The notes beneath the pieces are model-generated. The model had not been told where the DNA came from and made no database searches. It saw nothing but the letters and a program-made list of their open reading frames with translations. This document shows, in pieces, positions 8,131 through 45,428 of a DNA stretch of 64,000 bases (its first letter is position 1; the number at the start of each line of letters is the position of its first letter). Made by a program: the position numbers and the translations under genes. Source of the DNA: Calothrix sp. PCC 7716 (lineage in GTDB: Bacteria; Cyanobacteriota; Cyanobacteriia; Cyanobacteriales; Nostocaceae); assembly GCF_019977735.1 (NCBI RefSeq), contig NZ_AP025018.1, positions 9,428,580-9,492,579 on the forward strand, read 5' to 3'.

Positions 8131-8191
8131 AATAATCTGATAAAGCTTTGTAAGAATTTGAAAGAAATCGAGTATTGGGACTTATTACAAT
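8131..8191 (+). promoter_or_regulatory. AraC-type promoter module, copy 1
   Basis: Half-sites AATAATCTGA (8131-8140) and AAGAATTTGA (8152-8161) are 21 bp apart; TACAAT at 8186-8191 is 34 bp after the second half-site start and should be the -10 box. There is no good -35 box: the second half-site covers that position, as in activator-dependent (class II) promoters. It precedes the methyltransferase remnant and the hydrolase gene. Confidence 0.7.
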
Positions 8192-8247
8192 TGGTGATAG
8201 TAAGGGAATAAACACGCAATACCGCTCCCGGTTAAAGGCAATTCAAA

Positions 8248-8459
8248 ATGAAAAACCAAACATCAAATTTTGTTTTTGACGAAGAACGTGCTGCTAATTA
8301 TGACAAGCAACTTGCCTGCACTAGCTCCACTGCGCTCCGGCACTTGATTTGTTAATCTATATAGTGCTTTCTGAACTTCCTCAGAACGCACGCATCCTCT
8401 GCGTCGGTGCGGGAACTGGAAGGGAATTGATTCACCCCTTCAGACATTTTTCACAGTAG
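8248..8459 (+). pseudogene. SAM methyltransferase, truncated and frameshifted
   Basis: ATG 8248 opens MKNQTSNFVFDEERAANYDKQ, the usual start of a class I SAM-dependent methyltransferase. The frame is lost around 8310-8330 and continues in another frame as DLLIYIVLSELPQNARILCV followed by GAGTGRELI, the SAM-binding motif I, before a stop at 8457. Most of the enzyme beyond motif I is gone. It is the first gene after promoter copy 1, so the cassette was probably occupied by an active methyltransferase before decay. Confidence 0.7.
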
Positions 8460-8493
8460 CAATTTTTATACTACATCTCTCATGAGTAATTTT

Positions 8494-9219
8494 ATGTCAA
8501 CTTTTGTCTTGGTTCACGGCTCGTGGCATGATGGTTCTGCTTTCCAAGCGGTCATCAAACATCTTGAAGCAAAAGGACATCAAGCTTTTGCCCCCACAAT
8601 CAAAGGGCATGGTAAAGGCGTGAATAAAAACGTCAACCATGCTGAATGCACGCAATCGATAGTCGATTACATTGTTGACAAAGACTTAACTGATATCGTT
8701 CTATTAGGGCATAGTTTTGGCGGTACAATTATTACTAAAGTTGCCGAAGCGATTAGTGAGCGCATTAGACGGCTTATTTTCTTCGATGCTTTTGTCCTCA
8801 ATGATGGTGAGAGCCTCACAGATAATATCCCACCCAACTCTCAAGTCTTATTCGACAAGCTGGCTTTTGAATCAGACGATCATACGATGATGATGCCTTT
8901 TGAGATTTGGCGAGAAATGTTTCTCAACGACGCTGACCTCCAACTGGCTCAATCGAGTTACGCACAATTATCGTCTGAACCGTATCAACCGTGGATTGAC
9001 AAGTTGGACTTGAAGTTGTTTTACTCGCTGCCCATTCCTAAAAGTTACCTTTACTGCACAGAAGACAACACCCTTCCTCAAGGCGAGTGGGGCTGGCATC
9101 CAAGAATGTCAAACCGCTTGGGGCAATTTCGGCTTGTGCAAATGCCCGGTGGCCATGAGGTGATGTTTTCTAACCCTATTGGTTTAGCAGAAAAGATTAT
9201 TATGGCAGGGCGCGACTAG
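8494..9219 (+). CDS. alpha/beta hydrolase
   Basis: A 241-residue alpha/beta-hydrolase starting MSTFVLVHGSWHDGSAF, with the oxyanion-loop HG, the nucleophile elbow GHSFGG and a C-terminal catalytic histidine in MPGGHEVMFS; an acid residue is expected after the sixth strand (CTEDNTLP). This resembles the esterase/salicylate-esterase-like branch (hydroxynitrile lyase type). ATG 8482 is also in frame; 8494 matches the family start. No strong ribosome site is seen. It lies downstream of AraC promoter copy 1 and upstream of a GMC oxidoreductase. The first ten codons recur, fused to another gene, at 15159. Confidence 0.85.
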   Translation: MSTFVLVHGSWHDGSAFQAVIKHLEAKGHQAFAPTIKGHGKGVNKNVNHAECTQSIVDYIVDKDLTDIVLLGHSFGGTIITKVAEAISERIRRLIFFDAFVLNDGESLTDNIPPNSQVLFDKLAFESDDHTMMMPFEIWREMFLNDADLQLAQSSYAQLSSEPYQPWIDKLDLKLFYSLPIPKSYLYCTEDNTLPQGEWGWHPRMSNRLGQFRLVQMPGGHEVMFSNPIGLAEKIIMAGRD

Positions 9220-9466
9220 CATAATAAAGCTAGGTAAAAAACAAAAAATCTAATTTTTACCACTTAATTTTTATGCTAGGTTTCCCCATACAGAAAAATG
9301 CCCAATATTTTTGCAGAGATTTTTAGCAGATACAAATGTTCTGATTATAATAATGTACTTGAAGAATATAGGTGCAACAAAACAAGCCGAACAACATCTC
9401 TACGTCCGCTTGCAGTTCCCACGTAATATTCTTCACAGGACATTTTGTAAACATAATGAAAATTCC

Positions 9467-11011
9467 ATGACTCAATATGACTATGTTGTTATTGGTGCAG
9501 GTTCGGCTGGTTGCGTTGTCGCTAATCGTTTGACCAAAGACCACCAAACAACTGTGTTGTTACTAGAAGCTGGAAATCCGGATACAAAACCGGAGATTCA
9601 AATTCCAGCAGAATATCTAAAATTAATCTGTTCCGAGGTAGACTGGGGCTATTTTTCTGAACCAGAACCATACTTAGATGATCGCAAAATGTTTTATTCC
9701 GGTGGCAAAGTCTTGGGTGGCAGTAGTTCGATTAATAACATGCTCTATGTGCGAGGGAATTCTCGCGATTATGACCACTGGCAGTCATTGGGCAACTTCG
9801 GTTGGAGTTATCAGGATGTTTTGCCCTACTTCAAAAAATCTGAGCATTACTCGCGCGGTGCCGACGCATATCATGGTGTTGATGGCGAGTTAAACGTTAC
9901 CGACCAAGAGGCGCCTGCTACTGTCTCCCAAAGATTTGTAGAGGCGTGTGTGTTACTGGGATATGACTATAATCCTGATTTCAACGCTACTAAGCAGAGA
10001 GGAGTTGGGCTGTTCCAGTTAAACATTAAAGATGCTCGGCGCCATAGTGCTGCGACTGCCTTTCTCTCGCCCATTAAAAAGCGCCCCAATTTGAATGTCA
10101 AAACGGGAGCATTGGTAACTCGGTTGTTGTTTGAAGGCGCCCGCGCGGTTGGGGTGGAATATCTACATGAGGGAACACTGCACCAAGCCAGGGTTAACCA
10201 AGAAGTAATTTTAAGTGCAGGCACGATTAATTCGCCCAAGCTGCTGCTGCAATCAGGCATTGGGGCTGCTAAATCCTTACAAGCAAGGGGCATTTCTGTC
10301 GTGGTTGATCTACCTGGGGTAGGTAAAAACTTGCAAGATCATATCGTTGTTCCTGTAGCATATATGTCAACTCAGAACATAGACTTGGCGATAACTAGTA
10401 GTGGAACTGAAGCTGGATTGTTTTTGCATAGCGAGGGGAATTTAGACGCGGCGCCAGATTTAGAGATTATGTTTTCTCCCATTCATGAAGCAGTTCCTAG
10501 CTCTTACTACTGTTGTTCAGGATTCATCGGTTCAGTTGTGTTGATGCATCCTCACAATATTGGCAGTGTCAGTTTGCGACCTACCAAAGGTAATGCGAAA
10601 AGAACACCTGACCCTCAAGATAAACCAGTAATTCGGCTTAACTATCTGCAAAATCAATCCGATGTGCGTCTTCTAACTGCCGGAGTTAAATTAATCCGCC
10701 AATTATTTGAAGAAAATGCTTTTGATGAGTTTCGTGGTGAGGAAATTGCACCAGGTTCCCAGGTTCAAAGTGATGAAGCCTTTGAAGTGTACATCCGAGA
10801 AATTTGCAGTCCAGGCAATCATGCCGTTGGCACCTGCAAAATGGGTATTGACCGAATGGCAGTCGTAGACCCCGAACTACGAGTACACGGAGTTGAAGGG
10901 TTGCGGGTTGTGGATGCCTCGATTATGCCAACTTTAATCACGGGAGATACAAACGCAGCCACCATAATGATTGGCGAAAAAGCAGCCGATTTAATTAAAG
11001 CCGCAAACTGA
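9467..11011 (+). CDS. GMC-family FAD-dependent oxidoreductase (choline dehydrogenase-like)
   Basis: A 514-residue glucose-methanol-choline oxidoreductase. The start MTQYDYVVIGAGSAGCVVAN contains the dinucleotide-binding GxGxxG; the GMC signature GGKVLGGSSSINNMLYVRG and the C-terminal GTCKMG and DASIMPTLITGDTNAA are present. The usual catalytic WHPVGTCKMG reads NHAVGTCKMG here, so the His is kept but the Trp and Pro are replaced. The frame is open back to 9311, but that extension has no family similarity, so ATG 9467 is preferred. It would oxidise an alcohol with FAD. A paralogue with the same pattern is at 15159-16727. Confidence 0.88.
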   Translation: MTQYDYVVIGAGSAGCVVANRLTKDHQTTVLLLEAGNPDTKPEIQIPAEYLKLICSEVDWGYFSEPEPYLDDRKMFYSGGKVLGGSSSINNMLYVRGNSRDYDHWQSLGNFGWSYQDVLPYFKKSEHYSRGADAYHGVDGELNVTDQEAPATVSQRFVEACVLLGYDYNPDFNATKQRGVGLFQLNIKDARRHSAATAFLSPIKKRPNLNVKTGALVTRLLFEGARAVGVEYLHEGTLHQARVNQEVILSAGTINSPKLLLQSGIGAAKSLQARGISVVVDLPGVGKNLQDHIVVPVAYMSTQNIDLAITSSGTEAGLFLHSEGNLDAAPDLEIMFSPIHEAVPSSYYCCSGFIGSVVLMHPHNIGSVSLRPTKGNAKRTPDPQDKPVIRLNYLQNQSDVRLLTAGVKLIRQLFEENAFDEFRGEEIAPGSQVQSDEAFEVYIREICSPGNHAVGTCKMGIDRMAVVDPELRVHGVEGLRVVDASIMPTLITGDTNAATIMIGEKAADLIKAAN

Positions 11012-11026
11012 TAGATAAAAGTGCAT

Positions 11027-11136: not shown

Positions 11137-11292
11137 TATCTATGGCTAAATAGTCCAACCTAGTTTGAATAGCAATATTCTTTTATATTTGCGGCGCCAT
11201 CCATAAGAGATATTAAATGTTTACGCACACCTTGAACACCAAATTTAAAATTTTAATAAAATTGGCACTATTATTCAATCGGGGTAAGTCAA

Positions 11293-12207
11293 ATGCTGAA
11301 AACAAAATCTGTGACAAGTAGCCTCCTTAGATCAAACGAACTAAGCGAACGGTTGAATAAAACTCTAATGCTATCCAGTCGGCAACTGGGCTGGAATGGT
11401 ATTTTGGTTGAGCATTGCGAAACTCCTTCAGCTTCATCCTTTGAAATGGAACTTCCCGCTGTATCGGATCATTGGCTCAATTTACCTCTAGGGCGTCCCA
11501 GTTCTTTGATCCAAAAACGCGATAACGTAAAGCATGATTCAATTGTTCAAAAAGGTGACACTATCCTTATTCCTGCTGGACAACCAAGTTACTGGTGTCA
11601 GCCCGAAGCTAGCATCTGCTCTGCCCTGCACATTTGCTTAGAACCGAAGTTGATCGAACAAATTGCTACTGCATCCGAAATTGATCCTCTTCAATTCAAC
11701 CTCGTGAACTGTTTCCATAAGCAAGATTTACAACTTCATAATATTGCAATGCTGTTTTTAGCTGAATTGCGCTCAGATTGTATCATGGGGCGATTATATG
11801 TCGAATCATTAATTCAAATTTTAGTCATTCATCTGTTGCGAAATTATTCTAGTGTAACCCAAACTATTACATCTGAGAAACAAAGCTTAAATCGTACCCA
11901 GTTGCAGCAGGCAATTGACTATATTCACGCTTACATTGACCGAGATTTATCACTGGGAGAAATTGCAGAAGTCGTCAATATTAGCCCTACTTATTTTGCT
12001 AGCTTATTCAAACGTGCTATAGGTACTTCTCCTCATCAGTATGTCATTCAACAACGAGTTCAACAGGCAAAATTGCTGCTGTCGAAAACGGATTTGGCGA
12101 TTGCTGACATTGCTTTACAAGTAGGTTTTTCCAGCCAAAGCCATTTGACGCAACAATTTAAGCGACTTACTGGAGTGACACCAAAGCAGGTTCGCGCCTT
12201 ACCATAA
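11293..12207 (+). CDS. AraC-family transcriptional regulator
   Basis: A 304-residue regulator. Residues 1-190 form an unclassified sensing domain with no signal peptide. The last 100 residues carry two helix-turn-helix motifs: LSLGEIAEVVNISPTYFASL and IADIALQVGFSSQSHLTQQF, ending PKQVRALP. GGGGTAAG before ATG 11293 supports the start. The nine promoter modules described below have the two-half-site layout expected for an AraC dimer, and one (12206) lies straight after this gene. Duplicated fragments of its 3' end occur at about 8109, 13443, 17484 and 25425, and a stand-alone DNA-binding half at 44947. Its effector is unknown; redox or aromatic compounds would fit the neighbouring enzymes (inference). 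Confidence 0.9.
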   Translation: MLKTKSVTSSLLRSNELSERLNKTLMLSSRQLGWNGILVEHCETPSASSFEMELPAVSDHWLNLPLGRPSSLIQKRDNVKHDSIVQKGDTILIPAGQPSYWCQPEASICSALHICLEPKLIEQIATASEIDPLQFNLVNCFHKQDLQLHNIAMLFLAELRSDCIMGRLYVESLIQILVIHLLRNYSSVTQTITSEKQSLNRTQLQQAIDYIHAYIDRDLSLGEIAEVVNISPTYFASLFKRAIGTSPHQYVIQQRVQQAKLLLSKTDLAIADIALQVGFSSQSHLTQQFKRLTGVTPKQVRALP

Positions 12208-12266
12208 GAATCTGATAAAATTTCGTAAAAATCTGAAAGAAGTTGAGCATTATAACTAAATATACT
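12206..12266 (+). promoter_or_regulatory. AraC-type promoter module, copy 2
   Basis: AAGAATCTGA at 12206-12215 and AAAAATCTGA at 12227-12236 are 21 bp apart; TATACT at 12261-12266 is the -10 candidate, 34 bp after the second start. The first half-site overlaps the araC stop codon. It precedes the dehydrogenase at 12336. Confidence 0.75.
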
Positions 12267-12335
12267 TCAGATAGATAGAATTTTGCCGCTCACTGGACAG
12301 GGTGTACTAATTAACGTAGTATTTTGGAGGCTGAT

Positions 12336-13301
12336 ATGGAGTTTATGCAAGCTGCGGTACTGACCGCTTTTGGTAGACCCGAAGTATTTGAATTTCAAAA
12401 CATACCTAAGCCAGTTCCTTCTTCTACCCAAGTTTTGGTACGAGTACATGCGACCTCGATCAATCCTGTTGATTATCAAACTCGTCGGGGTGACTACAAA
12501 GATTTAGTTCGTCTCCCTGCAATTATTGGAGTTGATGTTTCGGGTGTGATTGAAGCCATTGGAGAAGCAGTAACCAGTTTCAAGGTAGGAGATGAAGTTT
12601 ACTACTCACCCCAGATTTTTGGAGAGTTTGGTAGTTATGCTCAATACCACGTTGCAGAGGAAAGCATTGTTGCAGTTAAGCCGATTAATTTGACCCATGT
12701 TGAGGCAGCTTGTTTTCCGTTGGCAGGAGGAACTGCTTGGGATTGCCTTGTAACCAGGGGGAATTTACAAGTCGGTGAGACGGTTCTAATTCATGCTGGA
12801 GCGGGTGGAGTCGGTTCTATGGCAATTCAACTAGCGAAAGCAATGGGTGCTTATGTATTTACAACATGCAGTGCAGAAAATTTTGACTTTGTTAAGAAGC
12901 TGGGTGCAGATTATCCCATCGACTACAAGCATGAAAATTATATTGAAGTGATTTATAGAGAAACTAACGGTCGCGGTGTTGATTTGGTTTTAGACACGGT
13001 TGGAGGAGATACAATTGAACGTAGCTCAGAAGTAATTCATCCGTTTGGCAAACTTGTCACAATTGTCGATACTGCAACTCCTCAAATACTTCTTGATGCT
13101 TGGGGTAAAAATTTGACTATTCACTTCGTTTTTAGTCCTCAGTATGGGGGCAAATTGGACGCACTGAGGAACCTGATTGAACGCTACCAAATTCGACCAG
13201 TAATTGATTCAGTTTTGCCTTGGAGTGACATAGTTCAAGCTCATCAACGTTTAGAAAAGGGAGGAATGCGAGGCAAAATTGTACTGCAATTGGCTGAGTG
13301 A
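12336..13301 (+). CDS. medium-chain dehydrogenase/quinone reductase-like protein
   Basis: A 321-residue zinc-independent medium-chain dehydrogenase. The N-terminal GroES-like domain (VLVRVHATSINPVDYQTRRG, PAIIGVDVSGVIEAIG) lacks the catalytic zinc cysteine/histidine set. The nucleotide-binding motif is AGAGGVGSMAIQLAKAMGA. It would reduce quinones or enones with NADPH. GGAGG five bases before ATG 12336 fixes the start (TTG 12324 is a frame extension). It is directly under promoter copy 2 and the araC gene, so it is the best direct target candidate of that regulator. Confidence 0.88.
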   Translation: MEFMQAAVLTAFGRPEVFEFQNIPKPVPSSTQVLVRVHATSINPVDYQTRRGDYKDLVRLPAIIGVDVSGVIEAIGEAVTSFKVGDEVYYSPQIFGEFGSYAQYHVAEESIVAVKPINLTHVEAACFPLAGGTAWDCLVTRGNLQVGETVLIHAGAGGVGSMAIQLAKAMGAYVFTTCSAENFDFVKKLGADYPIDYKHENYIEVIYRETNGRGVDLVLDTVGGDTIERSSEVIHPFGKLVTIVDTATPQILLDAWGKNLTIHFVFSPQYGGKLDALRNLIERYQIRPVIDSVLPWSDIVQAHQRLEKGGMRGKIVLQLAE

Positions 13302-13361
13302 TAAACCTGAACATTAATCTTCTAAGAGTACTCCAATTAAAAAAATGTCCCAGAATAAGCA

Positions 13362-13459: not shown

Positions 13460-13520
13460 AAAAATCTGATAAAGCTTTGTAAGAATCTGAAAGAAATCGA
13501 ATGTTAGAGCTTATTACAAT
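13460..13520 (+). promoter_or_regulatory. AraC-type promoter module, copy 3
   Basis: AAAAATCTGA (13460-13469) and AAGAATCTGA (13481-13490), 21 bp apart; TACAAT at 13515-13520. Directly before it, AGGTTCGTGCTTTACCATAA (about 13442-13461) is a copy of the last codons and stop of araC. It closely matches copy 1, including the bases after the -10, and precedes the small membrane protein. Confidence 0.7.
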
Positions 13521-13634: not shown

Positions 13635-13835
13635 ATGAATGATAATTCTGTATTTGTAATATTTATTGTCTTTGGATGTATGTGGCTGTTGATGGGGGTT
13701 GGTGGTGTTATTGCGTTGATGAAAATGGATGGTCAGGAGATAAGGTTTAGTAAAACTGCGCTTGTTGTTGTTATCCCTATTATTGTACCAATTATAGTTA
13801 CTCTTACTTATGCTGCAATTAGGGGCACATTTTAA
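13635..13835 (+). CDS. small two-helix membrane protein
   Basis: A 66-residue protein with two hydrophobic helices (about residues 5-28 and 41-61) separated by a short charged loop. Signals for a real gene: AGGT-like bases before ATG 13635, promoter copy 3 upstream, and a hydrophobic pattern maintained with normal codon use. I do not recognise a family. It would sit in the inner or thylakoid membrane. Confidence 0.5.
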   Translation: MNDNSVFVIFIVFGCMWLLMGVGGVIALMKMDGQEIRFSKTALVVVIPIIVPIIVTLTYAAIRGTF

Positions 13836-14023: not shown

Positions 14024-14298
14024 GCAAATAACACTAGTATTACATCTGGTTGATTTTCACTCATAAGGCGCCATTTCTAAGTGGAAAGGTGTTGTAAATA
14101 ATCTTAGTCATGGTGATACGGTAACTGTATCGAAATATTTAGTACGGGAATATCAGCAAGTTGGTCAAATAGAAAATGCAATTCAAACTCGCGCATCAAC
14201 TTGTCGCGTACTATAAAAAACAGGCGCCCATAATATTGGATCGCTTCATTATGGCAAGTTGATGATGAATCCACAGCTAGATTAATTGGCAGTTTTTA
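14024..14298 (+). pseudogene. chimeric remnant: 25.3-kb fragment joined to deleted TPR-CHAT gene copy
   Basis: Three pieces are joined. Bases 14024-14066 match 25307-25356. From the GGCGCC at 14067 the sequence follows the TPR-CHAT gene from 29919 to 30080 with a few changes, including several that break the frame. At the next GGCGCC (14223) it jumps to 32184, the CHAT end of that gene, and runs to the ribosome-binding region of the SDR at 14310. Both internal joints and the left edge fall on GGCGCC, so about 2.1 kb was removed between two copies of that word. Confidence 0.85.
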
Positions 14299-14309
14299 GG
14301 AGAAACAGA

Positions 14310-15065
14310 ATGATACTTCAGGATAAAGTGGCGTTAGTCACTGGAGGAACAACGGGAATTGGCAGAGCAACGGCGATCGCATTCGGTGCTGCTGGAGCAA
14401 AGGTAGTATTCTCAGGCAGACGCGATGCAGAAGGTGAAAAAACTGCCAAACTGATTCATGAAACAGGCGCTGAATGTTTATATGTCCATTCAGATGCCTC
14501 GAATGAGGAAGAGATCAAAGCGTTAGTCCTTCATACCGTTGCAACCTACGGACGACTCGACTGTGCTTTCAATAGTGCAGGCATCGAAGGATTCCTCAAG
14601 CCGCTGCACGAACAGTCAATTGAGGATTTTGACAAACTGATGGCGATTAACGTGCGGGGACTGTTTTTGTGCATGAAGTACGAAATTCAGCACATGCTGA
14701 CTCAAGGTTCTGGCGTGATTGTGAATAACTCCTCAGCAGCAGGCTTGGTTGGATTTCCAGTAAGCTCTCCTTACAACGCGAGTAAACATGCAGTCATGGG
14801 GCTAACGCGATCCGCAGCGTTGGACTATGCAAAACAGGGCATTCGGATTAATGCAGTGAATGCTGGACTCATAAAGACCGAGATGATGGAACGCACACTC
14901 AGTCAATTAGGTAGCACAGTTGATTATCTGGCATCTCTGGTTCCAATGGGGCGCGTCGGTCAGGCAGAGGAAATTGCTCAGGCGGTTGTGTTCCTTTGCT
15001 CTGATGCTGCTAGCTATATCACTGGACAACCCTTCGCGATTGATGGCGGATATACAGCGAGTTAA
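14310..15065 (+). CDS. short-chain dehydrogenase/reductase (SDR)
   Basis: A 251-residue classical SDR: cofactor loop TGGTTGIGRA, NNSSAAG with the catalytic serine, YNASK catalytic Tyr/Lys, and C-terminal GQPFAIDGG. GRRDAEG after strand two suggests NADPH preference. AGGAG seven bases before ATG 14310 fixes the start; the frame extends to 14286 only through remnant DNA. A HIP1 site (GCGATCGC) lies at 14373-14380. It appears to start a run SDR-GMC-VOC. The first 40 bases plus ribosome site recur as a fragment at 28892-28939. Confidence 0.9.
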   Translation: MILQDKVALVTGGTTGIGRATAIAFGAAGAKVVFSGRRDAEGEKTAKLIHETGAECLYVHSDASNEEEIKALVLHTVATYGRLDCAFNSAGIEGFLKPLHEQSIEDFDKLMAINVRGLFLCMKYEIQHMLTQGSGVIVNNSSAAGLVGFPVSSPYNASKHAVMGLTRSAALDYAKQGIRINAVNAGLIKTEMMERTLSQLGSTVDYLASLVPMGRVGQAEEIAQAVVFLCSDAASYITGQPFAIDGGYTAS

Positions 15066-17556: not shown

Positions 17557-17617
17557 AAGAATCTGACAAATCATTGTAACAATTTGAAAGAAGTCGAGCC
17601 TTGGAACTCAATACACT
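17557..17617 (+). promoter_or_regulatory. AraC-type promoter module, copy 4
   Basis: AAGAATCTGA (17557-17566) and AACAATTTGA (17578-17587), 21 bp apart; TACACT at 17612-17617. It lies 31 bp before the NTF2-like gene at 17648 and should drive that gene and probably the two flavoenzyme genes after it. Confidence 0.75.
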
Positions 17618-17647: not shown

Positions 17648-18241
17648 ATGGTCAAACAGCAATCTGTAGACGAACAAGCAAATGGAAAGGCAACTAGCAA
17701 TCTGACACCAGCCCAGGAGTTTTTGCAAGAACTCTGGGAAGAGCATCTGCGACACGAGTTTGGTACTCACAACGTTGAAGATGCTCTTGCCACGATGGTT
17801 GAGGATGCTTATGTTAATGACATTCCGGTAATGACCGGGGGAGTAGGGAAACCAGCACTGCGCGAATTTTATTCCAAATACGGCATTCCACAAATACCGC
17901 CAGACATGGAGCTAATCCCAATCTCGCGCACGATTGGAACCGATCGGCTTGTCGATGAAATGCTGGTTAAGTTCACTCATACCATCCGAATGGACTGGAT
18001 GCTACCTGGCATTGCTCCGACTCTTAAACAGGTTGAAGTGGCATTGGTAGCGATCGTTCAGTTCCGTGACAACAAGCTAGCCCACGAACACATATACTGG
18101 GATCAGGCGAGTGTATTGGTTCAACTCGGCTTGCTCGATCCTGGTAATTTACCCGTTGTGGGCGTTGAAAGTGCGCGTAAGGCACTCGATCCGAGCCTGC
18201 CCTCAAATGCACTAATCGAACGCGCCAGCAATCGCGACTAA
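17648..18241 (+). CDS. NTF2/SnoaL-like protein
   Basis: A 197-residue protein with the NTF2-like fold pattern: an N-terminal helix (AQEFLQELWEEHLRHEFGTH), the DAYVNDIPVMTGG loop, and a long C-terminal strand set ending EHIYWDQASVLVQLGLLDPG, typical of SnoaL/ester-cyclase-like proteins. AGGAG before ATG 17648 supports the start. Members act as small-molecule cyclases, isomerases or binding proteins. It heads a run with an Old Yellow Enzyme and an FAD monooxygenase under promoter copy 4. Its base composition is visibly GC-richer than the backbone and it lacks GGCGCC. Confidence 0.8.
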   Translation: MVKQQSVDEQANGKATSNLTPAQEFLQELWEEHLRHEFGTHNVEDALATMVEDAYVNDIPVMTGGVGKPALREFYSKYGIPQIPPDMELIPISRTIGTDRLVDEMLVKFTHTIRMDWMLPGIAPTLKQVEVALVAIVQFRDNKLAHEHIYWDQASVLVQLGLLDPGNLPVVGVESARKALDPSLPSNALIERASNRD

Positions 18242-22649: not shown

Positions 22650-22710
22650 AAGAATTTGACAAATTGTTGTAAGAATCTAAAAGAAGTTGAGCATTGGAAT
22701 TTAGTACACT
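22650..22710 (+). promoter_or_regulatory. AraC-type promoter module, copy 5
   Basis: AAGAATTTGA (22650-22659) and AAGAATCTAA (22671-22680), 21 bp apart; TACACT at 22705-22710. The following 60 bp, to about 22772, are also shared with copy 7 at 32426, so the two are a recent duplicate. It precedes the SDR at 22798. Confidence 0.75.
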
Positions 22711-22797: not shown

Positions 22798-23550
22798 ATG
22801 TCACAAAAACTCTCAGGAAAAGTTGCGCTTGTCACCGGAGGCACCAGTGGCATTGGTCTTGCCACAGCCAAGCGATTTGTCGCTGAAGGCGCCTATGTCT
22901 TTATCACAGGTCGTCGTCAAACTGAACTTGATGCTGCTGTAAACGAGATTGGTAAAAACGTTACTGGCATTCAGAGCGATGTCTCAAATCTGGCAGACCT
23001 TGATCGGCTTTACGCCACGATCGAGCAAGAGCAAGGTCGCCTCGATGTCATCTTCGCCAATGCTGGCATTGGAGAACCCATCCCGCTCGGATCGATCACC
23101 GAAGAACACTTTGACAAAACATTTAACATCAACGTCAAAGGTCTACTTTTCACTGTGCAGAAGGCACTGCCGCTGATACCAGAGGGTGCTTCCATCATCC
23201 TGAATGCCTCAACTTCTTCTATCGTTGGTACAAAGGCCTTCAGTGTGTATGGTGCCACCAAAGCTGCCGTGAGATCGTTTGCCCGCAACTGGACACTCGA
23301 CCTTAAAGACCACAAAATCCGGGTGAATGCTATTAGTCCTGGCACGGTTCCGACTCCTGGTTACGATCAATTTGGATTCAGTGAAGAGCAGGCGAAAGAA
23401 TTTGTGGAGAGCCAAGCTAAAAATATTCCATTGGGACGAGTCGGCACGCCCGACGAGATCGCCAAAGCTGTTGTCTTTCTCGCTTCCGATGACAGCAGCT
23501 TTGTAAACGGCATCGAGCTATTTGTCGATGGTGGCATGGCACAAATCTAA
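22798..23550 (+). CDS. short-chain dehydrogenase/reductase (SDR)
   Basis: A 250-residue classical [13 protein letters not shown] cofactor loop, FANAGIG (NAG motif), LNASTSS with the active serine, YGATK catalytic pair, and C-terminal [13 protein letters not shown] after strand two suggests NADPH. AGGAAA before ATG 22798 supports the start. It is the first gene under promoter copy 5 and is followed by an exported MBL hydrolase and a RidA protein. Confidence 0.9.
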
Positions 23551-26325: not shown

Positions 26326-26386
26326 AAGAATTTGATAAATCGTTGTAAGAATCTGAAAGAAATTGAGCCTTGAAACTTATTATACT
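26326..26386 (+). promoter_or_regulatory. AraC-type promoter module, copy 6
   Basis: AAGAATTTGA (26326-26335) and AAGAATCTGA (26347-26356), 21 bp apart; TATACT at 26381-26386. Upstream only ACCATAA of the araC end remains. It precedes the peptidoglycan-binding gene at 26539. Confidence 0.72.
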
Positions 26387-26538: not shown

Positions 26539-26808
26539 ATGTCTGAAGTTCAATCTGCTGCTACTGCTTTATCAAATGATTTGCCGACTTTGAAGAAAAA
26601 CACGAAAAGTGAAGCAGTCAGATTTATACAAGAAATTCTGGTTCTCGCTTATGGATATAAACTCGAAATTGATGGCATTTTTGGTCCCAAAACTGAAAAT
26701 GCTGTTCAAGACTTTCAAGTCGTTCATAATCTTGAATCTGAATACGGTTTTGTTGGTGTGAAAACTTGGCGTGATATTAGTGCTAATATTATTAATGGTC
26801 GCTCTTGA
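26539..26808 (+). CDS. stand-alone peptidoglycan-binding domain protein
   Basis: An 89-residue protein that is one PG_binding_1 domain: LKKNTKSEAVRFIQEIL, DGIFGPKTENAVQDFQ and GVKTWRDI. No signal peptide is visible, unusual for a wall-binding protein; small stand-alone versions occur in cyanobacteria with unknown roles. AAAAGGAG before ATG 26539 supports the start. Likely under promoter copy 6. Confidence 0.82.
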   Translation: MSEVQSAATALSNDLPTLKKNTKSEAVRFIQEILVLAYGYKLEIDGIFGPKTENAVQDFQVVHNLESEYGFVGVKTWRDISANIINGRS

Positions 26809-32425: not shown

Positions 32426-32485
32426 AAGAATTTGACAAATTGTTGTAAGAATCTGAATATGTTGAGCATTGGAATTTAGTACACT
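32426..32485 (+). promoter_or_regulatory. AraC-type promoter module, copy 7
   Basis: AAGAATTTGA (32426-32435) and AAGAATCTGA (32447-32456), 21 bp apart; TACACT at 32480-32485, here 33 bp after the second start because one base is missing. The 118 bp from here to 32543 are almost identical to 22650-22770. It precedes the CPBP protease. Confidence 0.75.
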
Positions 32486-32719
32486 TTCGGTATAAAGAAT
32501 CAGGAGAATCCCATACAAACTTCCTCACATATAGCGCAAATTTCAGGTAAGACGGTTTTGTACGTGTACCGATAATCGAACTTTTAATTTATTTAGATAA
32601 CTCCACGAATACTATCATTGATGGCGCCATTCTCAAATCAAAATTTGAAAAATAAATTCAGTATTAATTCTGTGCTACATTATCTACCCAGTATTTTAAT
32701 GTCTCTGGAGATTAAATCA

Positions 32720-33520
32720 ATGGCAGTTTTGAAACAATTTGGGATTCTATTTGTGTTGGGCATTGCGGGAATTGCGATGTTTACGATTACGTCGGTTCCA
32801 TTAGTTGAGCAACAGTTGGCAAAACTGTCTCCAGAAACACTGGCAAAAGTTCCGCCACTATGGGTTTTAATGCTGCTGCAAGGACTACAGTATACAGTTA
32901 TACTGGCAATCAGCATTCTGATCGGAATTGGCTGTGCCTATCGCGTTGGATTACGCTCACATTTGATTGACTACTGGGTACTTCATACACATTCGATTCT
33001 ATATTCTGTCATTGAGATGAAATGGAGCTTGGGTGTAGGTGCAGCAGTGACAATCATTCTCCTGTTGCTAGATCGGTTCATGAAACCTACTCTACCTGAA
33101 GCGCTACAGGCATCTAATAACACAGAACCGAATTGGCTGAGTTTACTTACAGCAATGCTTTATGGCGGCATCACTGAGGAAATTCTGATGCGCTGGGGCT
33201 TAATGTCGCTGCTTGTTTGGATAGCGTGGAAGGTATTAAAACAAGGCATTACGTTACCAAGCCAAGGAATATATCAAGGTGCGATTGTGCTAGTAGCGCT
33301 GGTATTTGGACTTTTACACCTGCCCGCGACTGCCGCGATAGTTCCACTCACTCCGGTTGTGATTATCCGAGCGATATTACTAAATGGGATTGCTGGCATT
33401 GCTTTTGGTTGGCTTTTTTGGCAATACTCGCTTGAGGCTGCGATGTTATCCCATGTCAGCTTTCATACCTTTTCCTTTGCTCTTAGTCTTTTGCTGGCAA
33501 GAATACACTTTCAGCGTTAG
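32720..33520 (+). CDS. CPBP-family intramembrane protease
   Basis: A 266-residue multi-helix membrane protein with the glutamic protease motif GGITEEILMRWG, FGLLHLP and HVSFHTF, the four CPBP (CAAX protease/bacteriocin-processing) motifs; about seven membrane segments. It cleaves within the membrane or processes peptides; in bacteria some give self-immunity to bacteriocins. ATG 32720 has GGAG nine bases upstream; the frame extends to ATG 32621 over DNA containing GGCGCC, a less likely start. It is under promoter copy 7. Confidence 0.82.
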   Translation: MAVLKQFGILFVLGIAGIAMFTITSVPLVEQQLAKLSPETLAKVPPLWVLMLLQGLQYTVILAISILIGIGCAYRVGLRSHLIDYWVLHTHSILYSVIEMKWSLGVGAAVTIILLLLDRFMKPTLPEALQASNNTEPNWLSLLTAMLYGGITEEILMRWGLMSLLVWIAWKVLKQGITLPSQGIYQGAIVLVALVFGLLHLPATAAIVPLTPVVIIRAILLNGIAGIAFGWLFWQYSLEAAMLSHVSFHTFSFALSLLLARIHFQR

Positions 33521-39015: not shown

Positions 39016-40653
39016 AGCTAATTAAGAAAGGTGTAGAACACCCAATTTTTACATTTGTTTACTGCGTATCCTATTATAGAACTTATATTGTCTCAGTAAA
39101 CCTAACTATAGTATAGTATTACGCTGCATAAATTTTCTTATTAACGAATGTTTCAATTCAAGATTTTTTCAAGATACGTTGCCACCAAGGTTTAATATTT
39201 CGCCAAGTCAGTTCGCAAATGGTACCTTGGGGTAAACGTACTTTTCTTTGGAATGTGCCTCGTAACTTACTTGATAATTCTTGAGCTTGAATTGTGCCAC
39301 GTCCGCTTTTAGCACGGCGCCCCCCTGAATAGTTACTTTGGTCATTAAATCCGTTATCAATTATTTGTAGAATACATAAGTTCTGCTCTTGCTTGCAAAC
39401 TACATCTAAACGAGTTGGATTTTTTGCGTGTTTACCGACATTGCACAAGGCTTCTTCTAAAAAAAGGCACAAACCTATTTTATGTTCTGGGGAAAGAGAA
39501 CAGTCTTCAAGTGGGGTAAAGTCAGGAGGAATATAAGTTTTAATTGTATCGAATCCTGGTAAACTACGCATTAATGTGTTTTCGTAAATTTCGTATAATA
39601 AGGCTGGAATTGGAGTATCAACGTAGCGATTATTACAAGATAATAGCTCTTGATTCATTACTTCATAAACAGTCCGCACTTCATAATTTAAAGCTTGTAG
39701 CTGCATACGTAGTTGAGAGTTAGACGAGTTATCATCAAGACATCTCAGCATTGCTGCTATAGTTTGGAGTGGACCATTGTGAACTGCATCATAAGTACGT
39801 TTCAACGTCAATATCCGCTGTTCCATAAAAATTCTATAGTTTTGGTCGAATAATGATGTTGTTAAGCCGGCGCCGCACAATGCTAATAATGTTGGTACAA
39901 GAGGTATCCACCAGGATAAAACCATTAGCGAATAGCAGATTAATATCAGCAAGAAGCTAGCTAGAGCTAAACTTAGAAGTGTTTTCCAAGGAGATTGAAG
40001 AAGTAAACCAGTAGCAATTCCTAGTATACCCCATGTAAAAATCCACAAGTAGTCCCAAGCAAAAAACCAGGTTTGAATAAATGGTCTGTTATGAAGAACG
40101 TTGTTAATAATTTGACTTGTTGCATGTGCATGATACTCAACACCGTAAATTAGCTGGTATTGGTCGGTACTATTTACGACATCACTTAGCCAAGTACCTT
40201 TAGTTGCTGAAGTCATAAAAGTATCATTAATGCTCGTTGTCATCATACCAATTAGAACTATGCGGTTTTGCATCAACTGGGGTTTAACTCGGTTTAATAA
40301 AACATCGGTAAGCGATACAACCGTAAATGGATACTTACTGCTACGATAATTAATTAATATTTGATTGCCACCTGAAGCAGCGTTAACATAGGCGCCAGTA
40401 TGCGAATGAAAACGGTTTAGTTCAGTGTTACCAAAAAAAATGGGAAAATCAGCACGGGCGCCATGTTTAAAAGCAATACCCTTTGATTGTAAGTATAATT
40501 GTGCAAGTTTTAATGATAAAGAGTATTTAATTTGACTTTCATTCCCTCGACTTGCAAGTAAACAGCGTCTTAATTTTCCATCTGGGTCAAGAACCACATC
40601 AGAAATTGCGATGCGATTTGGTGGTAACTCTGGAGGTGGTTTGACAATTAAGG

Positions 40654-42895
40654 CTCACATTCCGCACCCCTAACTGTCACACAAGTGTTTTTACTGATTA
40701 TTTTCTCCATCAAAAGATTAAAGTTATACTTTCGTTATATTTATAACCGTATTATTTACCTATTTTAGAAAAGATTTCTATTCTCAATTAATATCAATAA
40801 ATATTCAGGTTTAACTAATAGCTAAAAGTCTATGATTATTTACAAAATAATTGTATTTAATTTATACAATAGCAATTATAAGTAACTAGAATTTGTGACC
40901 ATTAATTTCAATTAATAGCCTCTATAACAAATAAATTTTTAAATTTTTAATACAGTCAAATTAACATTGATAATAATAACGACAATTGTCTGGCAACAGG
41001 CTCAAAATATACTCTCTTTCTGAATTCCAGTTTGATATTAATATTCGATTATCAATTTTCACTAAATGTATCGATTGAAAACATTGAAATATCCACCGCA
41101 TGGTTGGATTGTTTACAGATTTACCAAGCTGATTTTTTATAGTAGATTTAGTCGCTACCAAAGCTTTTCTTATTTGTCTTTGGGCTAGAGTATATACTAG
41201 TAAACATAATCCCATTATCATAGCCATAGCTTCAATTCTTTCCGGAGATTTAAGAAAAATGCTATCTGCAAAAAATAAAGCATCTTTAAGAAACCTAAAT
41301 CCTCTTTCACAGCTTTGCTGTGCCTTATACTCAGAAATCATATCATCATTGGTAAGAGATTTTTCATCTAAAACATTTGTTGCAAGAATAAAGCGTCCAG
41401 CTCTTTGATGGGCTTTTTTGATTTCATTAATATTCTCCGAGAATGAAGCATTCACTTGATAAAAAGTTGTTTGCTCTTTTTTACTTGCTAATTGCCGTTC
41501 TAAGTATTCGATGTTATCGAGTTGATGATATTTTAACTGTTTGTTTAAATTCTCTACGGCTTGAACAGCTTCTTGATAAGAATGAAATTTTGAGTTAAGC
41601 AGTTTTTTCAACTTATCTAATGAACTAGTTTTTAGCCGAGATATTCTTTTCTCTAATTGACGTAAATCAGATTTTTTTCTTTCTACGCTCTCTACAACTA
41701 GCCATCTTTGTTCAACTCCACCATAATTACTTTTAACTACACAATAATAGTATCCTGTTAAAGAACTATTAATAAAATCAGTTGGTAATAATGTCGATAC
41801 TAATTCTTTTGCTAATCCTACAGTCATTGGCACTCTAGACAACCATCTTACTTCGGATAATAAATTGATATTTTTTGCATTAAATAAAGCTCCATCTGCA
41901 ACCAATAAATCCTCGTCCGACATCTGTTTTTGTGCTTTTTCTTTTTTTAGATGTTCCTTATATTCTAAAAATATTTGAGCAAAACTTGAAGAATCAGATT
42001 TATTTCCAGATTCTGGTTTTAAAAATATTGGTATATCTCCGTCTCCAGATGATATTAATTCTATAATAAATTGTTTTAAATCAGGTCTGTGGTCACGAGA
42101 ATAACCATAGGTAATTTCAATGGCTTGTGATGCCTTAATTTCAATCCCTGATGAATAATTAAAAACTCCCGAAGGTAAACTAGTACTATATTCACCATGT
42201 AAATGCATCGATGTTGAATCCAAATGTGAAGATTTTAAACTAATATTAAACTCTTTTATAACACTAATACTAATAGCTAAGAATACCTCCGTTAAACCTT
42301 TAATAAATAATTTGTCCATTACTCTACCTAATTTATCATCATTTAAATATTCTGCTTTGACTCCTTCTCCTATTAAATGCTCACAAGGTTTATCTTTAAA
42401 AAACTCTGGAAACATATACAAAGGGCTACTTACAAAACCTAACCCATTTAATATCATCGCCTTAACTACGTGTCCTGGGCTAACTTTTTCCCCTGATTCT
42501 TGTCCAACTATTTCATTAATAATTTCTACCAAGCCCATTGAATCTATAATCCCTGCAATTATACCCAAATGGTCTATGCTTTGAATTTCAACATCTCTAT
42601 GATTAAACATGACGATAAAATACAAGTTACGACATCTGTTAAAATTTTCGCACTTTATGTACCTGATAATTTCTTTTCAATCGTTGGCACCATTTCTCTT
42701 TAGCCATTCCACGCATACAAATGCACGACTAGGGTGCCGTTCATCTAGTTGGTACTTATATATAAATAGGATTTATTTTTATTAAGCTTTAAAATATACA
42801 TGAATATTGCCGCCATTTATAGTTCTAAAATACTCTTTTGTCAGCATTGCTTTAGTACTTAAGAACTTGTGACAGTTAGGGGTGCGGAATGTGGG
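40654..42895 (-). mobile_element. IS1634-family insertion sequence (2.24 kb)
   Basis: Terminal inverted repeats of about 28 bp begin CYCACATTCCGCACCCC at 40654 and end as the complement at 42895, with one mismatch near the ends. The target TTAAGG is duplicated at 40648-40653 and 42896-42901. It inserted into the CHASE2 kinase gene in the same direction as that gene. No GGCGCC occurs inside, unlike most of the window. The clean repeats suggest recent transposition. Confidence 0.92.
40961..42610 (-). CDS. IS1634-family transposase
   Basis: A 549-residue DDE transposase. It begins MFNHRDVEIQSIDHLGIIAG (a five-codon extension to 42625 is possible). The catalytic aspartates read HLDSTSMHL and LVADGALF, and the C-terminal Glu lies in QQSCERGFRFLKDALFF with the family's YREK-like arrangement; a long coiled insertion separates them. 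It fills the element and is uninterrupted, so it may be active. Confidence 0.92.
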   Translation of the reverse strand: MFNHRDVEIQSIDHLGIIAGIIDSMGLVEIINEIVGQESGEKVSPGHVVKAMILNGLGFVSSPLYMFPEFFKDKPCEHLIGEGVKAEYLNDDKLGRVMDKLFIKGLTEVFLAISISVIKEFNISLKSSHLDSTSMHLHGEYSTSLPSGVFNYSSGIEIKASQAIEITYGYSRDHRPDLKQFIIELISSGDGDIPIFLKPESGNKSDSSSFAQIFLEYKEHLKKEKAQKQMSDEDLLVADGALFNAKNINLLSEVRWLSRVPMTVGLAKELVSTLLPTDFINSSLTGYYYCVVKSNYGGVEQRWLVVESVERKKSDLRQLEKRISRLKTSSLDKLKKLLNSKFHSYQEAVQAVENLNKQLKYHQLDNIEYLERQLASKKEQTTFYQVNASFSENINEIKKAHQRAGRFILATNVLDEKSLTNDDMISEYKAQQSCERGFRFLKDALFFADSIFLKSPERIEAMAMIMGLCLLVYTLAQRQIRKALVATKSTIKNQLGKSVNNPTMRWIFQCFQSIHLVKIDNRILISNWNSEREYILSLLPDNCRYYYQC

Positions 42896-43306
42896 TTAAG
42901 GAAGAACGAGTGTTTAAAGCAGCTTCAATTCCAATTAAATTAGGGCTATTTTCAAGAATATTGCTCAATTTTACTCGGTCAGGACTATAAGTTAAATCTC
43001 GGAAAATGTCTAACCCGATAGCTGTAGGTTTATAACTTTGGATAATTGTTAACAATTGAGCTAAATCTCGGTCGGGGATAGGATATTTCCCAACGGTTCT
43101 GATATCATCTTCGTTAATTCCAACAATTACAACCTCTGGGTCGGATGCTTCGGGTGGACGTAACTGTAGAAAATTATCAAAAGCTATCCACTCTAATAGT
43201 TGCAAAGAACCCGTTAGCCGAACGAATATAATACAGGCTATCACTGCTAATCCTGGTAGTGCAAATTTACGCAAAATTTCTGCTCTAATCAGAATTTTCA
43301 ACATAA

Positions 43307-43975
43307 CTAGTTAATTAACCCTAACTTGCGTGCGGCAATTTCAATTTGAATTCTTAATTCCTTATCTGGTTCATCGTAAACACCCAAAGCATCTTGTAGT
43401 CGAACCCAGTAGTTACGGATGGTACGGTCGCTAAGTTGCATACGTTCGGCAATCGCTTTATCGGTTAGACCTTCTTGGAATTTGAGCGTTAAAACTTCTA
43501 ACCATTTGCGGTCAAATTCAGAACGTGACCGCAACTGGGGTGGTAGGTATATTGAACCTCGCAAAGCCAAATCAATTAATCTAAGCATCTCCTGTATTGG
43601 TAGCGATTTATCCATTGCAGCAAATCCACCCTCGTATGAATTAATCATAGGCTTTAACTGTATAAGGGGTTTAATATTTGTACTCAGTACTAAAATATTT
43701 GGAGCCAGCTTACTTTCAATTATAGTCTTAAGGAACTGCATCCCCACTTCTGGACTTGCTATAGCATGAGGTTTTGCTGGTAAACTTAAATCAATCACAA
43801 CTAGCGTTGGATGGTAACTTAGCTGCATTTGAGCAGTTTGTACATCTTGTGCTGTCAAGATTTCTGATGAAGGATAAGTACGCTTTAAAGCTGGGACTGT
43901 ACCCTCTAATATTGCCTCATGGTCATCAATAACCAAAAATATCTGCTTACTCGAATCATTTGTGTTTCGGCTCAT
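43307..43975 (-). CDS. LuxR/NarL-type response regulator
   Basis: A 222-residue response regulator. The receiver domain has VIDDHEAILEG, the phosphoryl acceptor in VVIDLSLP (Asp near residue 61) and NILVLSTN; the C-terminal HTH reads GLTDKAIAERMQLSDRTIRNYWVRL, a LuxR helix-turn-helix. Its stop lies 2 bp before the CHASE2 kinase ATG, so they form a two-component pair whose kinase is now split. A possible target is the exoprotein transcript downstream. Confidence 0.9.
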   Translation of the reverse strand: MSRNTNDSSKQIFLVIDDHEAILEGTVPALKRTYPSSEILTAQDVQTAQMQLSYHPTLVVIDLSLPAKPHAIASPEVGMQFLKTIIESKLAPNILVLSTNIKPLIQLKPMINSYEGGFAAMDKSLPIQEMLRLIDLALRGSIYLPPQLRSRSEFDRKWLEVLTLKFQEGLTDKAIAERMQLSDRTIRNYWVRLQDALGVYDEPDKELRIQIEIAARKLGLIN

Positions 43976-44151
43976 AGGCGATAATTCTCCAATATCACAT
44001 AACTTATATATTTTAGTAGGAATAACGATATTTTAAATCAATATGTAACAAAATAAATTTCTTTATAATGCAAACTAATTTCCAGATTTGGTAACTGGTT
44101 TTCCAAAAATGGAAACATAAAATGAATTTAATTAAGGCAAGCTTTTATCAT

Positions 44152-44212
44152 AAAAAGCTGACAAATTATTGTAAGAATTTGAAAGCGGTCAAGTATTGGA
44201 ACTCAGTACACT
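44152..44212 (+). promoter_or_regulatory. AraC-type promoter module, copy 8
   Basis: AAAAAGCTGA (44152-44161) and AAGAATTTGA (44173-44182), 21 bp apart; TACACT at 44207-44212. Thirty-three bp later starts the crystallin-like gene, whose ATG is preceded by AAGGAG. Confidence 0.72.
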
Positions 44213-44245
44213 TCAAATAGATAGGTTAAATAAGGAGAAAAAACA

Positions 44246-44584
44246 ATGTTAACGACTAAATTGAAGGTTTTGGCAGTTTTAGGTGCTAGTTTGATTGGGA
44301 GCGCCATTCAGCAAACAAATGTATTGGCACAAGGCGTACCAGATGTGATTTTGTGGGATCATAAAATTGGTAGAGGAGCATCATTTCAGACAAATAAAGC
44401 CGTGCCAGATTTGGGTAAATTTAACAACAGAGCTTCAGCGATTCAAGTCAATAATGGTCAGAAGTGGAGATTTTACGAAGGTAAAAACTTTACGGGTGCA
44501 TTTATTGAAATAGGTCCAGATGAAGCTCGTGGAAATATTGGACGGTTCAATAATAGAGTCTCATCTCTAAGAGCAGTTCGTTAG
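44246..44584 (+). CDS. secreted beta/gamma-crystallin-like protein
   Basis: A 112-residue exported protein: signal peptide (LKVLAVLGASLIGSAIQQT, cleavage after VLAQ), then WRFYEGKNFTGAFIEIGPDE and RFNNRVSSLRAVR, a Greek-key calcium-binding crystallin motif as in peptidase inhibitor family I36. One motif is clear and a degenerate one precedes it. A second, divergent copy is at 45511, also under an AraC module. Function is probably in the periplasm or outside. Confidence 0.8.
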   Translation: MLTTKLKVLAVLGASLIGSAIQQTNVLAQGVPDVILWDHKIGRGASFQTNKAVPDLGKFNNRASAIQVNNGQKWRFYEGKNFTGAFIEIGPDEARGNIGRFNNRVSSLRAVR

Positions 44585-44597
44585 TAATAAAAACCTC

Positions 44598-44625
44598 GTA
44601 GAGACTAAACATGCTTAGTCTCTAC
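44598..44625. repeat. dispersed hairpin
   Basis: GTAGAGACTAA pairs perfectly with TTAGTCTCTAC across a 6-base loop, 14 bp after the crystallin-like stop codon. It resembles the GTAGAGAC-type hairpins in the MITE at 21091. It could end transcription, but no U run follows. Confidence 0.55.
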
Positions 44626-44940
44626 ATTATGGGCTGACGTATTAGGCGCCTTCAAAATCAAAATTCTTTTACTATTACAGGTCATTCTAAATTACTAAAT
44701 AGTCTTTATAAACTACAAATTTGAGAGGTACGTAGTATCGCTTCAGCGAACAAAAGTATTAAAATAAAGACTCAGGCTAAAGCCTTACTACGTAGCTCCC
44801 TTAAATTTTCCATTTATGGAAACATAAGGGGAGTTCAGTTATTTATACTTAAATTATCTAATATTTGATATCTTATATCTTCCATTTAGAGGTAAAACCC
44901 GCTAAATAAAAATATTAGTGCTATTAATATTAAGTCAGGT
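44626..44940. other. intergenic, inverted repeat near TACTACG
   Basis: CGTAGTA (about 44733) and TACTACG (about 44797) bracket AGCGAAC-like bases, another interspersed cyanobacterial repeat pattern. No gene is seen. One GGCGCC occurs at 44645. Confidence 0.4.
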
Positions 44941-44946
44941 GAAGTT

Positions 44947-45369
44947 ATGAGTAAGTTATACGTTGAATCTTTAACTCAGGTATTGGTAATTCATTTACTG
45001 CGACACTATTCTACCAAAGCGCAAATTATTTCATCTAATAATAAAACCTTAACTGGCGCCCAATTGCAGCAAGCACTCGATTATATTCACACTCACCTTG
45101 ACGAAGATTTATCGTTAGTACAAATTGCAGAAGTCGTCAATATCAGCCCCACTTATTTTGCCAGTTTGTTCAAAATTACTACAGGTAATTCTCCGCACCA
45201 GTATGTGATTCAACAACGGGTGGAACGTGCGAAAATGCTGCTGTCGAAAACAGATTTAGCAATTTCAGACATTGCATTACAAGTAGGTTTTTCTAGCCAA
45301 AGTCATTTAACACAACAGTTTAAACGATTTACAGGTATGACACCAAAACAGGTTCGCTCCTTATCATAA
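44947..45369 (+). CDS. stand-alone AraC DNA-binding domain
   Basis: A 140-residue protein equal to the last 40-45% of the AraC regulator at 11293-12207: LSLVQIAEVVNISPTYFASL and SDIALQVGFSSQSHLTQQFK with TPKQVRSLS at the end. The sensing half is missing. GTGAAG precedes ATG 44947. Either a free activator that binds the same sites without an effector, or a truncated copy. Promoter copy 9 starts at its stop codon, as copy 2 does after the full gene. Confidence 0.75.
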   Translation: MSKLYVESLTQVLVIHLLRHYSTKAQIISSNNKTLTGAQLQQALDYIHTHLDEDLSLVQIAEVVNISPTYFASLFKITTGNSPHQYVIQQRVERAKMLLSKTDLAISDIALQVGFSSQSHLTQQFKRFTGMTPKQVRSLS

Positions 45370-45428
45370 AAATCTAACAAAATATCATAAGAATTTGAAA
45401 GCATTTAAGCATTAGAACTCAGTAAACT
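45368..45428 (+). promoter_or_regulatory. AraC-type promoter module, copy 9
   Basis: AAAAATCTAA (45368-45377) and AAGAATTTGA (45389-45398), 21 bp apart; TAAACT at 45423-45428. It directly follows the stand-alone AraC domain and precedes the second crystallin-like gene. Confidence 0.7.

Follow-up and report, generated by a model that had tools for sequence, protein, structure and literature searches.

What reads a promoter-like module that recurs nine times, at fixed geometry, among the genes of one cyanobacterium, and how did its copies come to stand where they do? The module lies between positions 8131 and 45428 of a stretch of 64,000 nucleotides (the window) from contig NZ_AP025018.1 of Calothrix sp. 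PCC 7716, and consists of two direct half-sites followed by a -10 box. The nine modules are very probably activator-dependent promoters of one regulon under the AraC-type protein encoded at 11293-12207, and the copies would have arisen by duplication of units of araC, promoter and gene. A single AraC-dependent regulon had been proposed in a first-pass annotation of the same DNA. It is favoured here by the position of the module, which adjoins the stop codon in this araC clade but in none of the paralogues examined; all 28 orthologue-bearing genomes of the family also carry a module, although this co-occurrence is partly automatic. Judged from the sequence, the promoters are moreover partly copies by descent, a point that was absent from the annotation.

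Geometry and conservation of the module

A half-site pair search of the window recovered the nine positions of the annotation exactly. The half-sites are AANAATYTGA-like, two per module, and as described they lie 21 bp apart in all nine copies. The -10 box follows the start of half-site 2 by 34 bp in 8 of the 9 copies and by 33 bp at 32426.

8131..8191, + strand: module 1; half-sites 8131-8140 and 8152-8161, -10 TACAAT at 8186-8191, araC-tail homology upstream
12206..12266, + strand: module 2; begins within the araC stop codon, -10 TATACT at 12261-12266
13460..13520, + strand: module 3; -10 TACAAT at 13515-13520, weak araC-tail homology upstream
17557..17617, + strand: module 4; -10 TACACT at 17612-17617, araC-tail remnant upstream
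22650..22710, + strand: module 5; -10 TACACT at 22705-22710
26326..26386, + strand: module 6; -10 TATACT at 26381-26386
32426..32485, + strand: module 7; one base fewer after half-site 2, -10 TACACT at 32480-32485
44152..44212, + strand: module 8; -10 TACACT at 44207-44212
45368..45428, + strand: module 9; begins within the stop codon of an AraC fragment, -10 TAAACT at 45423-45428

The overlaps with the stop codons of araC (12206) and of a 140-amino-acid AraC fragment (45368) were also as described, and no -35-like hexamer was present in any copy. At the place of a -35 box, 17 bp before the -10 box, six copies have AGAART and the other three have ATATGT, AGCGGT and AGCATT; this hexamer is never TTGACA-like, and it overlaps the end of the extended half-site 2. 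With up to 3 mismatches allowed, the half-site pair gave 10 matches in the window, compared with a mean of 1.26 in dinucleotide shuffles. The tenth match (5800) falls within a coding frame and was rejected as a decoy. A refined 34-base pattern separated the copies further: on the + strand nine sites had at most 3 mismatches and the tenth-best place had 9, while simulated windows (n = 40) never fell below 6. All nine modules point at a gene, and apart from 3 bases at each of the two stop codons they are intergenic. The intergenic share of positions 4900-46400 is 17.8% by the gene list, which gives this placement a P value of about 2e-7.

Identity among the nine copies was 81-85% in the half-sites and the -10 box and 73% in the block between half-site 2 and the -10 box. 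It was 57% in the spacer, 55% in the ten bases just upstream and 30-37% in the more distant flanks. This profile is the pattern that selection on binding sites would leave after long divergence.

The same anatomy was seen in 48 modules, equivalent to about 15 independent ones, that had been found by protein similarity and not by motif. Conservation was concentrated in TAAGAATCTGAYAAA, 6 variable bases, TAAGAATCTGAAAGAAG, the block GAGCATTRGAACT, and TACACT at offset 55-60, and conservation dwindled past about +75. The proposed 15-bp direct half-sites take the form TAAGAATCTGAYAAA-N6-TAAGAATCTGAAAGA. The block GAGCATTRGAACT occupies module columns +40 to +53, between half-site 2 and the -10 box; in a class II promoter no role for it is obvious. 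A larger set of 140 modules from the family was chosen by motif, and its half-site conservation is biased for that reason; the protein-found sets are the unbiased ones. In the 140 modules, the best -10-like hexamer stood at one common offset in 128, and TANNNT was present at the -10 offset in 107, compared with a mean of 1.8 modules per offset over offsets 62-109.

Pairs sought with free spacing also peak at 21 bp, so that this distance is more than a product of the search pattern. Exact AAGAATYTGA pairs 12-42 bp apart numbered 114 in 217 family genomes; 84 were at 21 bp, none at 20 or 22 bp, and the remaining 30 were scattered across 13 spacings. About five of the 84 resemble coding repeats by eye. 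The reversed pattern gave 10 matches in this search.

Linkage to one araC clade

In the 12.4-Mb genome, the refined pattern (up to 3 mismatches, so that weaker sites were outside its reach) had 12 matches and no reversed match. Nine of these are the modules of the window, and the other three lie next to a second araC that is 83% identical to the first. Each of the two match clusters contains an araC, and thus the regulon as seen by this pattern consists of two gene clusters. An equal frequency of the module in unrelated coding regions, which the first-pass annotation had named as a sign against a regulon, was not observed with the refined pattern, either in the genome scan or in the placement among the window's genes. 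Of the 217 family genomes, 55 contained the pattern, with 140 matches in all, and none contained it in reverse; the pattern is incomplete, as a few more pairs with a different spacer are known from the exact-pair search.

The proposed activator is the following gene product.

11293..12207, + strand: AraC-type protein, 304 amino acids, with a predicted cupin-like N-terminal barrel, helices and an AraC DNA-binding domain

Its C-terminal domain, the double helix-turn-helix typical of AraC/XylS regulators, matched Pfam HTH_18 (8.3e-25) and HTH_AraC (7.6e-25), both above the curated cut-offs, and in the PDB it matched the AraC DNA-binding domain 2k9s, with the sequence match lying mainly within the DNA-binding domain. 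No Pfam domain was found in the N-terminal part, where an effector or dimerisation domain would lie in this family. The predicted model (mean pLDDT 78) has an N-terminal beta barrel followed by helices; the structures that Foldseek aligned with it were the arm domain of AraC (2arc), cupins and AraC-family proteins with two domains. NCBIfam equivalogs of the AraC family were matched in 35 families; all of the 25 listed were below cut-off, the best of them being AryK with 97 bits against 850. The closest named araC relatives, 95-96% identical, occur in Scytonematopsis, Calothrix and Dulcicalothrix, and the genome itself holds 48 AraC-like matches.

Of 65 distinct full-length orthologues (at least 56% identity), 59 had the module at the stop codon, as did none of 41 distinct full-length paralogues (at most 51% identity), a count that covers all distinct full-length AraC genes gathered by protein searches. 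A smaller earlier subset, made up of the best loci plus fetched stretches and 20 paralogues chosen from a longer list, gave 33 of 35 and 0 of 20. In 48 of 50 named orthologue loci, a few of them with broken araC frames, the half-site pair was found at the stop, no more than 14 bp behind the final codon of the match. The two exceptions are a Dulcicalothrix locus (L199), which has lost the second half, and a Nostoc flagelliforme locus (L204), in which one half-site is left. These orthologue counts are not independent, since species and near-identical genomes recur and only identical downstream stretches were merged. In L204, the module near 3546 is down to a single half-site, as if its repeats had recombined, and in another locus (L306) the spacer of the module behind araC is partly duplicated.

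The stretches that should hold the recognition helices of this protein, placed by analogy with the AraC family, hardly vary among 67 orthologue sequences; among 42 paralogues they are far less constant. Orthologues were found (E 1e-70) in 28 of the 217 family genomes, and all 28 have a module; one weaker match of 46% (genome G081) was excluded. The match was incomplete in two of the 28, covering residues 103-301 near a contig start in G108 and residues 2-259 in G147. An orthologue was present in 19 of the 22 genomes with at least two modules and in 9 of the 33 with one module; the former proportion is a better sign of a common regulon than the co-occurrence in 28 of 28 genomes.

A module upstream of araC was absent in 22 of 24 orthologues checked, and autoregulation of araC was therefore rejected as the general case. 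In Phormidium tenue FACHB-886 (L232 and L234) a module does lie upstream of an araC gene, at 362 and 70 bp; some araC copies may thus be activated by the regulon itself.

Direct repeats of any sequence were also sought at paralogue stops. One paralogue locus (L269, 44% identity) has a diverged 21-bp direct repeat, AAAAACTGAA / AAAAACGGAA, behind its stop codon, with 9 of 10 letters matching at 21 bp; shuffles also reached 9. Another (L053) had 9 letters at 18 bp, L057 had 10 at 21 bp within a simple repeat farther on, and the other paralogues were near the shuffle level. The L269 repeat, not significant alone, is suggestive of a stop-anchored layout older than this araC clade.

Origin of the copies and the genes behind them

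Homology to araC was found upstream of many modules. In a tblastn search directly upstream of the 140 modules, counting only matches that extend to the araC C-terminal end, 23 had a full-length araC, 7 a partial one, 11 a short tail and 99 none. When the 60 bases before each module were compared at the DNA level, 87 of the 140, intact araC genes included, showed homology to the araC 3' end that exceeded the 99% null level, as did 6 of the 12 modules of this genome. In the window the tail exceeded the null level at 8131, 12206, 13460 (barely), 17557 and 45368. The elements, their geometry and conservation, the linkage to one araC clade and the araC tails are all observed in the DNA.

These tails suggest repeated duplication of units consisting of araC, promoter and gene, followed by decay of the spare araC copies with the promoters retained. 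A fuller version of this history is put forward tentatively. In it, the araC end and the promoter at its stop codon would be the seed of the regulon, repeatedly duplicated and now standing before dozens of gene families; the spare activator would have eroded and the surviving araC elsewhere would control the copies, so that the regulon grew by copying of the tail and not by site-by-site evolution. Under this proposal the successive stages (full araC, C-terminal half, short tail and no tail) can all be read in living genomes.

The AraC fragment of the window is a truncated araC copy.

44947..45369, + strand: AraC fragment, 140 amino acids, C-terminal; the match of its frame spans residues 158-303 of the full protein

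In a comparison aimed at selection, the fragment shows few changes between the window and locus L121 (nonsynonymous divergence dN 0.012, synonymous divergence dS 0.021). Short Nostoc AraC remnants of up to 109 amino acids were considered as working mini-regulators and generally rejected, since 7 of the 12 contain early stops. An AraC DNA-binding domain that stands alone, in open frames of 119-135 codons, recurs at L310, L311, L314 and L317, and also at L312, L313, L315, L175 and L105; the first four have no module behind the domain and share a similar downstream gene start. This domain looks like a MarA-like single-domain regulator related to the AraC protein of the window.

Two corrections apply to the genes behind the modules. 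Directly behind 8131 lies a broken methyltransferase-like frame, with the hydrolase at 8482 farther on, and 13460 precedes a short open reading frame (ORF) at 13635. The broken frame (8249-8440) starts MKNQTSNFVFDEERAANYDKQ, has an early stop and resembles S-adenosylmethionine-dependent methyltransferases by eye.

8482..9219, + strand: alpha/beta hydrolase, behind module 1 past the broken frame near 8249
12324..13301, + strand: zinc alcohol dehydrogenase / quinone oxidoreductase-like protein, behind module 2
13635..13835, + strand: 66-amino-acid ORF, membrane-protein-like by eye, behind module 3; then a short-chain dehydrogenase/reductase (SDR), 14286-15065
17648..18241, + strand: SnoaL/NTF2-like protein (Pfam match below curated cut-off), behind module 4; then an old-yellow-enzyme-type oxidoreductase
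22798..23550, + strand: SDR oxidoreductase, behind module 5; then an MBL-fold hydrolase and a RidA-like protein
26539..26808, + strand: peptidoglycan-binding-domain protein, behind module 6
32618..33520, + strand: CPBP/Rce1-like membrane protease, behind module 7
44246..44584, + strand: beta/gamma-crystallin-like protein, behind module 8
45487..45885, + strand: beta/gamma-crystallin-like protein, behind module 9; then a RidA-like protein, 45954-46352

Across the family, the genes behind modules encode 176 distinct proteins, which formed 52 sequence clusters; the gene was taken as the first ORF of at least 80 amino acids, and some of these picks will be wrong. The window genes, some of which sit farther along a gene run and not directly behind a module, were compared with Pfam together with 20 cluster representatives. 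The matches included SDR, GMC and old-yellow-enzyme oxidoreductases, quinone-reductase-like proteins and flavodoxin-fold reductases; alpha/beta hydrolases, SnoaL/NTF2-like, glyoxalase and RidA-like proteins, MBL-fold hydrolases and GST; and intradiol dioxygenase, CPBP proteases, a TetR-type regulator, prolyl oligopeptidase and crystallin-like proteins. No Pfam match was obtained for 3 of the 20 representatives. A role of the regulated set in detoxification or in the handling of aromatic compounds or electrophiles is plausible, and is the weakest part of the interpretation.

Two further features of the window were recorded. Part of a CHASE2-domain protein (39158-40597) is separated by a DUF4277/DDE transposase (40961-42625, minus strand) from an ORF (42876-43304) that resembles its N-terminal half by eye; the region 39158-43304 thus probably holds a sensor kinase split by an insertion. 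A 60-bp tandem repeat of 3.1 copies (51356-51540) overlaps an ORF at 50899-51510.

Activation model, alternatives and known systems

In the proposed mechanism, the AraC protein, probably a dimer that responds to a small molecule, would bind the two direct 15-bp half-sites on one face of the helix, and the downstream half-site would stand in for the missing -35 box. RNA polymerase would then be recruited to the -10 box (TACACT), with transcription starting about 7 bp further, as at the XylS-dependent promoter Pm. The module geometry, the predicted domains of the regulator and the invariant recognition-helix stretches together suggest that AraC on both half-sites replaces the -35 contact. The original promoter would begin at the araC stop codon and drive the next gene, and the other copies would stem from duplicated araC-promoter-gene units whose spare araC copies decayed; the promoters could be kept after this decay because one activator works in trans. 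From the DNA and protein comparisons we infer the binding, the activation, the start site, the effector and the order of duplication and decay.

Several observations weigh against this interpretation. Six of the 65 orthologues lack an intact module at the stop (two tandem genes in L199 and one each in L281, L198, L204 and L309), and the 60-base DNA comparison gave no significant araC tail at 22650, 26326, 32426 and 44152. The co-occurrence of orthologue and module in 28 of 28 genomes is partly automatic, because the module and araC are physically linked. An orthologue at E 1e-70 is missing from 27 of the 55 genomes that have a module; 26 of these contain paralogues or araC fragments only, and one (G195) has nothing at E 1e-20, its single module match being probably due to chance. 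The -10 box was intact in 17 of 32 modules of orthologue-less genomes, compared with 93 of 108 elsewhere (P = 3e-4), a difference that was not significant after near-identical copies were collapsed (11 of 16 versus 61 of 73, P = 0.18). The modules in orthologue-less genomes may be relics or may be served by another regulator.

The same promoters could be read by a different regulator, either an AraC paralogue or a response regulator that binds direct repeats, with the araC linkage being historical. The orthologue-less genomes, 26 of the 27 with AraC paralogues or fragments, and the 48 AraC-like matches in this genome would fit such a regulator. It is nevertheless unlikely, given that 59 of 65 orthologues but 0 of 41 paralogues end at a module, the orthologue in 19 of the 22 genomes with at least two modules, and recognition-helix stretches that are constant only inside the clade. 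It is very unlikely that the modules are neutral, non-functional dispersed copies of the araC 3' end that merely resemble promoters. The shared ancestry of the copies is clear, many have araC tails, and in some Nostoc genomes araC remnants are decaying, with the early stops in 7 of 12 mentioned above; yet identity in the window is concentrated in the half-sites, the -10 box and the block between, with spacer and flanks diverged, the geometry is preserved across many cyanobacterial genera, and all nine copies are intergenic and each points at a gene. A bound AraC acting as repressor or anti-activator seems scarcely probable: a half-site over the -35 region would also suit blocking of RNA polymerase, but a promoter with no usable -35 box would be weak unaided, and in geometry the modules resemble the activator sites known from Pm and cphA2A1. 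One regulon activated by the AraC protein of 11293-12207 remains the favoured explanation, and the modules most likely represent a real AraC-type promoter set in cyanobacteria with an unusual promoter origin.

Recruitment of genes into existing regulons is usually inferred from single binding sites. A long promoter module with a built-in marker of its origin, the araC tail, allows such recruitment to be traced across cyanobacterial genomes, and a specific pair of promoter and activator is a candidate inducible expression system for cyanobacteria. To our knowledge, few AraC-type regulons have been described in cyanobacteria. The part of the literature results that was searched contained no account of this AraC, of its half-site, or of growth of a regulon by copying of a regulator's 3' end. 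The parts of the system are of known kind; what is new is the promoter welded to the stop codon of its putative activator, together with its proposed spread with the activator's tail.

The repeats of the Pm promoter, from the Pseudomonas TOL plasmid, are spaced 21 bp. The modules have direct repeats about 21 bp apart with the proximal one at -35, a fixed distance to the -10 box and no good -35 box, and class II promoters of the XylS/Pm type are most likely the best reading of them. If transcription starts 7 bp after the -10 box, the half-sites lie at about -68 to -54 and -47 to -33. In the accessible parts of the papers cited here, XylS binds two direct repeats, the second of which overlaps the -35 box by two bases (PMC4225500), CphR has two 15-bp repeats at cphA2A1, -35 to -49 and -55 to -69 (PMC6205950), and MtlR has two 15-bp blocks, -72 to -58 and -50 to -36 (PMC4514859). 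The modules thus resemble XylS/Pm and CphR/cphA2A1, as far as these texts describe them, in having two direct 15-bp repeats, a proximal repeat that reaches the -35 region and a putative activator of the AraC/XylS family (PMC4225500, PMC6205950). They differ from XylS in the half-site, which is TAAGAATCTGAYAAA here and TGCAN6GGNTA for XylS, and from XylS/Pm in three further ways: they form a set of many promoters, where Pm is a single one; the original promoter starts at the stop codon of the putative activator gene; and other genes are regulated.

PchR-type proteins such as IutR, which controls iron uptake, are AraC-family transcriptional activators in cyanobacteria, according to the accessible text (PMC11221513). 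In contrast, no iron-uptake family was among the Pfam matches examined behind the modules; the distinction is drawn by gene content. As in Escherichia coli AraC, the predicted fold of the protein joins an AraC-like cupin domain to an AraC DNA-binding domain. At araI1-I2, E. coli AraC binds direct half-sites 21 bp apart beside the core promoter; unlike there, araC here is not generally under the same site, as shown by the upstream module in only 2 of 24 orthologues. MarA, SoxS and Rob each exemplify one AraC-family protein that governs several stress or detoxification promoters through single asymmetric sites, whereas the promoters described here have two direct half-sites each, and their gene set is clustered round the regulator.

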